From an uncultured Desulfovibrionaceae bacterium (GTDB taxonomy: Bacteria; Desulfobacterota; Desulfovibrionia; Desulfovibrionales; Desulfovibrionaceae): 64,000 nucleotides of DNA. The stretch covers positions 372,001-436,000 of the forward strand of contig CALUZB010000004.1 in the NCBI GenBank assembly GCA_944325195.1, in the 5' to 3' direction. The position numbers were made by a program, and so were the translations under genes. Positions within the stretch are counted from its first letter, which is position 1; every line of letters begins with the position of its first letter. The notes under the pieces are model-generated. The model saw only the letters and a program-made list of their open reading frames with translations, was not told the DNA's origin and made no database searches. Positions 52,001-54,174 of this stretch are shown here, piece by piece.

Positions 52001-52521
52001 ATCGACTGCAATTTTGCCGGGCACAGACTTCAACAGCCTGCTGTCTTCAATCCGGAGTTGCAGCGTCCGATAATCTGACTAGACTACTACTAATCATCCA
52101 ACAAGAAACATCGCGTGTGGGTCAGCCCCTTCTTCCGCTTCCGATCTATCCAAACGTTACCCTGCAATACAGCATCACTGCCAAACCAGATTGGGGCGAA
52201 GACTGCCCGCAGCTTCCCTTCAGCTATGGAAGGAAATGTATCTTACGAAACGTACATTCCTGTATAATACTTTGCCCGCAGTCTTAAGCTGTTAATGTAC
52301 CACCATAAAGAGATACATGTATCTCTTGTTTTTTTGGGAGAGTGTACTTTGGATAAACGGCAGAAAGTTTAAAAGCTCAAAGCCTGCATTTGCAACCGAA
52401 AGCTGTTCTTAATCTTTTCGCTTTTTTCTTAAGGCGCCTTCTCCCTAATTTTAGTAGGACGTCACCATCCACCAAGCTTCATTCAAAATAAAAAGGGAAA
52501 TTTATTAAGGGAGGTTGTCAG
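52001..52521. other. Leader region upstream of the NCS1 permease operon
   Basis: No gene supported; a frame over 51994-52287 crosses the hsp20 terminator and lacks a ribosome binding site. A stem GGAAATGTA/TACATTCC (52232-52260) precedes a TATAAT box (52263-52268). Sixty nt later comes the palindromic terminator at 52308, and then 185 nt of further untranslated sequence. Confidence 0.45.
52308..52335 (+). terminator. Fully palindromic terminator or attenuator ahead of the permease operon
   Basis: AAGAGATACATGTATCTCTT is a perfect 20-nt palindrome followed by GTTTTTTT. It lies about 40 nt after a TATAAT box at 52263-52268 and 185 nt before the first gene, so it could stop a short leader RNA. 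Confidence 0.7.
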
Positions 52522-52680
52522 ATGAACGACACTGATACGTTGGATCCTGAACTATTGAAACAAATAGAGGAAAGCGAATGCGACGCAGGCCGCACTGAGA
52601 CCATCACCCTCTCAGAGGCAATTATTCTGTTTGTAATAACTTTCGTTATATTCCCGTTGTTGGGCTATTTAAGTTATTAA
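52522..52680 (+). CDS. 52-residue single-pass membrane protein paired with NCS1 permease
   Basis: ATG 52522 has GGGAGG 7 nt upstream, one of the best ribosome binding sites in the window, and the frame runs 52 codons. Residues 1-30 are acidic and soluble (NDTDTLDPELLKQIEESE). Residues 31-52 form one membrane helix (EAIILFVITFVIFPLLGY) ending LSY. The gene lies 17 nt before the permease start. No family recognised. By analogy with tiny accessory subunits of other transporters, it may stabilise or regulate the permease. That role is inference; the translation signal is what is seen. Confidence 0.72.
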   Translation: MNDTDTLDPELLKQIEESECDAGRTETITLSEAIILFVITFVIFPLLGYLSY

Positions 52681-52697
52681 TTATGAAGGAGCCTAAA

Positions 52698-54122
52698 ATG
52701 CAAAAAGAATTAAAGGATAACGGGCTCGGCAACGTAGAAGAGCAAATGACCACAAATCCCATTGCTGCCCGACACCGCCGTTTCAACCTTATAGACTTTG
52801 CTTTTCTTTGTACTTCATTCGCCATTGCCAGTTGGTGCCTGCTTACAGGCGGGGTGCTGGGCACATTCCTCCCGGCCAACCACTTAATGAGTGCCTGCAT
52901 CATCGGGGTATGTATGGGCACAGTCATTGCTTGTTTTTCCGTGCAGGGCTGTACCAAATACGGCTTAGATCAATATGTGCTGTTACGAGCCCCTTTCGGT
53001 ATAAACGGGGTGAGGTTTCCTGTTACCTTGACAATTGTCATCGGCTTAGGCTGGAACACTATTATCCTGATCATGCTTGCCAGCGGTTGCGTGACCATTG
53101 TGGATGCCATTTATCCGCTGGATGAATCCACTAAACCCATACTCTTACGCGTGTTTGGGTTCCTTGGCGTGCTGATTACCTTCCTGATTTCTCAAACCGG
53201 GCCTTTGGGCATGAAAATTCTCACCCGCATCACTACCCCGCTTTTACTTTTCATTATGTTTGTGATGTTTTACATGCTGTTTACCAAAGTAGGCATCGAC
53301 AAGATTTTTTCAACAGCTCCCGGCAGCCCCTGGCTTGACCCCAAGATATCTTATTTCCTGGGCATAGAACTGTTATTCGGTCTGGCTATGGGGTGGTGGC
53401 CGTTTTTGGGCGCTCTGGGCCGGCTTGCCAATAACAACAGAGCCTATTACTGGGGGTTCTGGATCGGCAACGGCGTGATCTTCGGCCTGATGGCCATTGT
53501 GGGCGGGATCAGCGGCCTCATCTTCAACACTTTCAACCCGCCGGACTGGATGATTCCTTTGGGCGGCTTCTTCCTGGGTCTGGTTTGTCTCGGCTTCCTG
53601 GCCCTGGCTAATATTTCGTCCACAGTAATTCAGGTGTATCCCTGCGCCATGGCGTCCAAGCAATTTGACAGCATGAGTTCCAAGAGCTGGAGATTCCTGC
53701 TGTTCCTTTGCTGCATCCCAATGGCCCTGGTTGCTACCATTATTCCGGAACTGTACTATGAACATTGTCCTTCCATTCTCGCATTCTGCGCAACCTTCTT
53801 TGCCCCCATGTGCGGCATCTGCATTGCCGACCTGGTATTTCTGCGTAAAAAGGAAATTGACGTTAAATCGCTTTACTGCAAAGCAAAAGGCAGCAAGTTC
53901 TATTATTGGAAAGGAATAAACTGGATCGCCATATTCACCAGCGTAGCCGGATTTCTGTTTTACCTGTGGTTCCTGAACCCGATTACTCTGGAATACGGGG
54001 AAACTTCTCCCTTCCCGATTCTGCTGAACGCCACTGTACCGACAGTAGCCTTCACATGCGTCCTCTATACAGTGCTGACCAAGCTGATTACTATACCAGC
54101 CAAAAAGGGTGGGTTTAAATAA
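52698..54122 (+). CDS. NCS1-family permease (cytosine/purine permease-like)
   Basis: A 474-residue integral membrane protein with about twelve helices of the NCS1 (CodB/Fcy2-like) family. Seen: FNLIDFAFLCTSFAIASWCLLTGG, the loop GLDQYVLLRAPFGINGVRFP, LGWNTIILIMLASG, and the helix-6 region GLAMGWWPFLGALGRLANNN, with NISSTVIQVYPCAMASK. NCS1 carriers import cytosine, purines, hydantoins, thiamine or allantoin by ion symport; the substrate here is not clear and no cognate deaminase is adjacent. ATG 52698 is used because AAGGAG ends 6 nt before it. ATG 52683, 15 nt upstream, lies just 5' of that site. It follows the 52-residue gene and has its own terminator. Confidence 0.88.
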   Translation: MQKELKDNGLGNVEEQMTTNPIAARHRRFNLIDFAFLCTSFAIASWCLLTGGVLGTFLPANHLMSACIIGVCMGTVIACFSVQGCTKYGLDQYVLLRAPFGINGVRFPVTLTIVIGLGWNTIILIMLASGCVTIVDAIYPLDESTKPILLRVFGFLGVLITFLISQTGPLGMKILTRITTPLLLFIMFVMFYMLFTKVGIDKIFSTAPGSPWLDPKISYFLGIELLFGLAMGWWPFLGALGRLANNNRAYYWGFWIGNGVIFGLMAIVGGISGLIFNTFNPPDWMIPLGGFFLGLVCLGFLALANISSTVIQVYPCAMASKQFDSMSSKSWRFLLFLCCIPMALVATIIPELYYEHCPSILAFCATFFAPMCGICIADLVFLRKKEIDVKSLYCKAKGSKFYYWKGINWIAIFTSVAGFLFYLWFLNPITLEYGETSPFPILLNATVPTVAFTCVLYTVLTKLITIPAKKGGFK

Positions 54123-54150
54123 TCACCTGTTTGAGCAGCACCCACAACTA

Positions 54151-54174
54151 AAGCCGGCATTTGCCGGCTTTTTT
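54151..54174 (+). terminator. Terminator of the NCS1 permease operon
   Basis: AAGCCGGC-ATTT-GCCGGCTT followed by TTTT. Strong rho-independent terminator 28 nt after the stop. Confidence 0.9.

Follow-up and report, generated by a model that had tools for sequence, protein, structure and literature searches.

The window analysed here, a 64-kb stretch of a 2.48-Mb Desulfovibrionaceae genome, holds in this order hsp20 with its strong terminator, an intergenic stretch, a 52-codon open reading frame (ORF), an NCS1 permease gene and a terminator-like hairpin (Table 1). Neither a catabolic nor a regulator gene adjoins the small gene and the permease in the window. The genome contains three genes of the arginase/agmatinase family (G000:C15:3715-4512, G000:C7:28914-29459 and G000:C4:362034-362567; L063-L065), none of which is adjacent to the permease, one of them being located approximately 62 kb away.

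The sequence GGGAGG is found 7 nt ahead of the ATG of the small gene, and GGNGGTTGTCAG ahead of this ATG is also retained in the sister genome, one other genome of the same Desulfovibrionaceae genus (G035; locus L001). The permease frame is open from ATG 52683; the likely start, as read from the sequence, is ATG 52698, which is located 17 nt past the stop codon of the small gene, is preceded by AAGGAG and lines up with the permease start of the sister genome. The elements described in a first-pass annotation of this DNA, a 52-residue single-pass ORF with a strong ribosome binding site 17 nt before an NCS1 permease, are all present.

Table 1. Features of the small gene-permease locus, in window coordinates (L001, locus of the sister genome)
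Feature	Coordinates	Strand	Basis or remark
Conserved promoter/operator-like block with TATAAT (52263-52268)	52234..52277	+	40/44 bases identical to sister genome (91%; L001 1340-1383)
Second conserved leader block, TGTTAATGTACCA	52290..52302	+	12/13 bases identical to L001
Perfect 20-nt palindrome; RNA hairpin of 8 bp with 4-nt loop	52308..52327	+	Hairpin at same place in L001 (1414-1433)
Run of seven T	52329..52335	+	After palindrome and one G; missing in L001
Remaining leader, not conserved	52336..52508	+	Poor alignment with L001; no Rfam match
Ribosome binding site GGGAGG of small gene	52509..52514	+	Read from sequence
Small membrane protein gene, 52 aa	52522..52680	+	69% identical to L001 copy of equal length; dN/dS ~0.07; hydropathy
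NCS1 permease, MetT branch, 474 aa from likely start ATG 52698	52698..54122	+	PF02133, tree, AAGGAG, L001 register
Terminator-like hairpin 3' of permease	54150..54171	+	Terminator scan

The leader

The most strongly conserved feature of the leader is the block surrounding the TATAAT box, which the first-pass annotation had not noted. It contains two inverted repeats, TACG-AAA-CGTA (52244-52254) and AATGTA/TACATT (52235-52258), and TACGAAACGTA followed by TATAAT occurs only once in the genome; no acceptable -35 box was found with TATAAT 52263-52268. With their operator-like inverted repeats, the surroundings of the -10 box suggest control by a specific, predicted regulator.

Downstream of this block, the first-pass annotation had recorded a perfect 20-nt palindrome with a T run about 40 nt after TATAAT, followed by a leader of about 185 nt. 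All of this is recovered, with 186 nt between the T run and the small ORF and the palindrome being the sole perfect one of 20 nt in the 64-kb window. In both the window and the sister genome the hairpin begins exactly 40 nt after TATAAT and is the only 8-4-8 hairpin of the leader. Six stem changes separate the two sequences with all eight pairs kept, two of the pairs by changes on both sides and two by G-U changes (P 0.002 under random changes), and a column-shuffle control, which with two sequences has no power, was not significant (132/500). Judged from its pairing, the RNA hairpin is probably under selection.

Its shared position, its uniqueness in either leader and the retention of 8/8 pairs would be expected of a transcription attenuator that controls both genes. 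However, the T run is absent from the one sister genome, the stem with only two G-C pairs is a weak terminator that the terminator scan does not score high enough to call, and the leader further down is neither alignable nor matched in Rfam. With two sequences compared, and a 5' hairpin that stabilizes the mRNA or binds a protein fitting equally well, attenuation is considered possible but rather doubtful. Of the leader terminator proposed at first, position and pairing are thus preserved in the sister genome, but not the T run, and the stem is weak.

A riboswitch was also sought, but no Rfam family reached its gathering score; at E up to 1 a single irrelevant viral match appeared and none that was credible. 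The palindrome core GATACATGTATC was rejected as a regulon operator, with two exact sites in the genome and near matches no commoner than those of the reversed control.

The small gene and the MetT branch of NCS1 permeases

The sister genome carries the same pair, with a 52-aa small protein that is 69% and a permease that is 87% identical to their counterparts in the window. For the small ORF, pS is 0.73 and pN 0.17, corresponding to a dN/dS of about 0.07 that is a rough value with dS saturated, and the permease shows a dN/dS of 0.05. The 46 nucleotide differences in the small ORF result in 16 amino acid changes and no stop codon, while random placement of as many changes gives on average 28.7 amino acid changes and introduces a stop codon in 80% of the trials. 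Because length, 69% identity and low dN/dS coincide, the small ORF is, on this sequence comparison, a real gene under selection at the amino-acid level; a synonymous/non-synonymous ratio near 1, which the first-pass annotation had named as telling against its proposal, is not observed.

The small protein possesses a polar, acidic N-terminal part with ELLKQI at residues 10-15 and one C-terminal helix from approximately residue 31 (hydropathy 2.47 over 19 residues). A search of 199 genomes found no convincing match to it in other genomes of the family.

With respect to the permease, a PF02133 score of 78.7 bits (cut-off 23.5; E 5.3e-22) places it in the NCS1 family, and it scores under the cut-off of TIGR00800. 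A tblastn search with the window permease retrieved 41 plasmid records at E < 1e-5, and two other branch members as queries gave the same number of records of the same make-up; 20 of the 41 were taken for analysis, the remainder being mostly near-copies (Rhizobium, Ensifer). In a maximum-likelihood tree, from which control loci whose permease frame was broken or cut short (L023, L031, L035, L038-L041) were excluded, the window permease falls inside a 19-member clade together with the metformin importer MetT (support 100/100). The 27 other NCS1 permeases in the tree, drawn from Desulfobacterota and plasmids, fall apart from it. The clade includes Pseudomonas metformin plasmids, the permease gene of which exactly matches the printed metT cloning primers (PMC13390362).

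The 19 branch loci span Desulfovibrionaceae, Pseudomonadota, Actinomycetota and Bacillota, with sampling beyond Desulfobacterota consisting of plasmid records. Within the family, MetT-branch permeases occur in two genomes only, both of this genus, and a search of 395 genomes found no further branch member in the phylum, the matches belonging to other NCS1 branches. An NCS1 match in another Desulfovibrionaceae genome, L058 (G008:C1:2459697-2460728), lies in an 898-aa open frame far beyond normal permease length; from the nearest ATG the ORF stops after 418 aa, and the figure of 898 aa may be an artefact.

Directly upstream of the permease, all 19 branch loci have an ORF of 50-76 aa whose N-terminal part is polar and whose C-terminal part forms a single hydrophobic helix; in one case (KHPS1, L042) the ORF is interrupted by an internal stop. 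An automatic scan flagged 17/19, the others being KHPS1 with its stop and L054, just under the hydropathy cut-off. None of the 27 other NCS1 loci has an ORF of that layout; two ORFs flagged among them were one of 108 aa from TTG, probably spurious, and one of 48 aa with an N-terminal helix and a basic tail. The association of pairing with branch (Fisher 5e-11) is inflated by kinship, but the clade comprises about eight deep lineages. The small gene and the permease go together across the whole MetT branch in several phyla, and in many records the small ORF has independently been annotated as a hypothetical protein. A small ORF with a helix upstream of related permeases, for which the first-pass annotation had advised a search, is thus encountered throughout the sampled branch, and the lack of a conserved ORF upstream of orthologous permeases, which would have spoken against it, is not seen.

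The distance between small ORF and permease is often 1-12 nt or the two overlap. This tight spacing and the well-placed ribosome binding site of the small ORF could indicate an upstream ORF that couples to or regulates translation of the permease, with the peptide as a by-product. Selection at the amino-acid level at near-saturated synonymous divergence, the C-terminal helix kept in all lineages, the permease's own ribosome binding site in the window and a gap of 95 nt between the two genes in L001 make such a role highly improbable.

While the permeases still align among lineages, the small proteins barely do. A motif, [DEQ][LI]xx[RQ][ILA], is located 14-20 residues ahead of the helix in 10/11 representatives, although it was picked after viewing the alignment, with shuffle probabilities of 0.02-0.10 each. 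Ten small proteins gave no match at cut-off to Pfam and NCBIfam models, and assignment to NapE (PF06796) was rejected at 15 bits against a gathering score of 25, the match covering the helix only. As homology of the window small protein to the others was established neither by HMM search (E 3.7, third among the 582 ORFs of the window) nor by profile comparison (probability 4%), its tie to them rests on synteny, layout and one short motif, on the basis of which a common origin is plausible.

Metformin plasmids and candidate substrates

MetT is the NCS1 metformin importer of Aminobacter sp. NyZ550, described in 2026 as a lone carrier in a paper that nowhere mentions the upstream small ORF and contains none of the terms small protein, hypothetical protein and single transmembrane (PMC13390362). 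The MetT-bearing Pseudomonas plasmids also have this ORF. The metT knockout primers, when mapped on the near-identical Pseudomonas locus, would remove 720 nt in frame from the interior of metT, and the left arm starts upstream of the small ORF. If NyZ550 shares this layout, the small ORF would have remained in all strains of the knockout study, and its need would consequently not have been probed there.

The plasmids KHPS1, MET-2 and KHPS2, described as from metformin degraders (PMC9800807), differ at three positions only over 1.8 kb. In KHPS1 and MET-2, a TAA at codon 40 interrupts the small ORF immediately ahead of its helix (L042, L068, position 3466). In KHPS2 the small ORF is intact, but the permease has a TAG at codon 25 (L046 position 3612). 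Because of this TAA, metformin use would not strictly require the full-length small protein, barring read-through of the stop codon or an error in the sequencing.

MetT and the window permease belong to the same NCS1 branch with about 29% identity. Trp51, Trp124 and Trp238 of the window permease correspond to W43, W117 and W231 of MetT (the last two shifted by one between MetT and KHPS1-copy numbering), alanine mutants of which keep 2-11% of metformin uptake (PMC13390362). These pocket residues are thus retained, while the positions of F47 and T260 are not, F47 being replaced by Thr, and genes for metformin hydrolase or nickel proteins do not adjoin the pair in the window.

In window numbering, Glu229 is present in 19/19 branch permeases and absent from all 27 others; the branch is further marked by Trp239, Asn310 and Trp336, with Trp51 in most members. 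The branch-invariant acidic residue and the extra tryptophans stand near positions that bind metformin in MetT. As Glu229 and the tryptophans are retained and a ureohydrolase gene is found near eight plasmid loci of the branch, cationic guanidino compounds or amines are suggested as branch substrates, which for the window is an extrapolation. The window permease would most likely import a positively charged small organic compound, guanidino or amine, and not a nucleobase.

On a Bacillus badius plasmid (L051 3251-8374), a MetT-branch pair has genes for a DUF3445 protein and for a PDR/VanB oxidoreductase as neighbours. These are reminiscent of the oxidative N-demethylation of amines, and an amine substrate would be in keeping with them.

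A putative auxiliary subunit and comparable known systems

It is proposed, as the reasonably probable interpretation, that both genes constitute one transport unit, in which the small protein serves a MetT-type NCS1 importer as its dedicated auxiliary subunit with a single membrane pass. The single helix of the small protein would pack against the permease in the membrane, while the N-terminal segment, probably cytoplasmic, may contact the carrier with its ELxxRI-type motif, and the small protein might thereby promote folding, stability or activity of the permease. From genes and sequences we infer the physical complex and its effect as well as the topology of the small protein and the substrate. 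Points that count against a subunit are the lack of a significant match of the window small protein, the stops in KHPS1 and MET-2 and the 95-nt gap in L001.

On the other hand, the small protein could act in the same pathway as the permease without binding it, or regulate it by an indirect route, such as that of a signalling or proteolysis adaptor, and their adjacency would then be an operon habit. The absence of a recognized sequence family and the great differences of the small proteins among lineages, across which the permeases still align, are compatible with such a protein. However, metabolic neighbours change by lineage, with ureohydrolases, choline dehydrogenase, aldehyde dehydrogenase and oxidoreductases being found elsewhere and none of them in the window, and among all neighbours only the small gene accompanies the permease throughout, which renders a non-binding role unlikely.

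The auxiliary subunit, if such it is, is encoded by a partner gene that the whole sampled NCS1 branch has kept and that goes unmentioned even in the 2026 study of the first characterized member of this branch. The question raised is whether MetT requires this partner. An answer would matter for the failure of close MetT homologues to complement, for the expression of such importers in the degradation of drug pollutants, and for whether NCS1 is to be counted among the LeuT-fold families with single-helix subunits. In a bolder and rather improbable extension, MetT-branch carriers would be two-component importers of organic cations, all of them requiring the tiny subunit, which would determine their stability, affinity or specificity, and some recently metformin-adapted plasmids would have dispensed with it.

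To our knowledge, NCS1 carriers have been treated as single-polypeptide transporters, Mhp1 of this family being a model of alternating access, and the literature searched contains no small subunit of an NCS1 carrier. CodB, PucI and Mhp1-type carriers have PF02133 in common with the window permease, the similarity to Mhp1 being weak (E 3e-7), but the 27 sampled others branch apart and lack both such a small ORF and Glu229. A parallel in gene arrangement is MetPS of Corynebacterium glutamicum, which consists of the NSS carrier MetP with the small subunit MetS. Like the present pair, it joins the genes of a bacterial secondary carrier and of a small protein with one helix, although NSS is not NCS1 and the small proteins described here match no Pfam or NCBIfam model.

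The likeness in function would be to SGLT2-MAP17, although transporter family, organism and small protein are all different. In this human pair, a LeuT-fold glucose transporter has a single-helix auxiliary subunit needed for robust activity or stability (PMC10803289). As in this system, hydropathy and synteny find at the present locus a small one-helix protein encoded with its LeuT-fold carrier.
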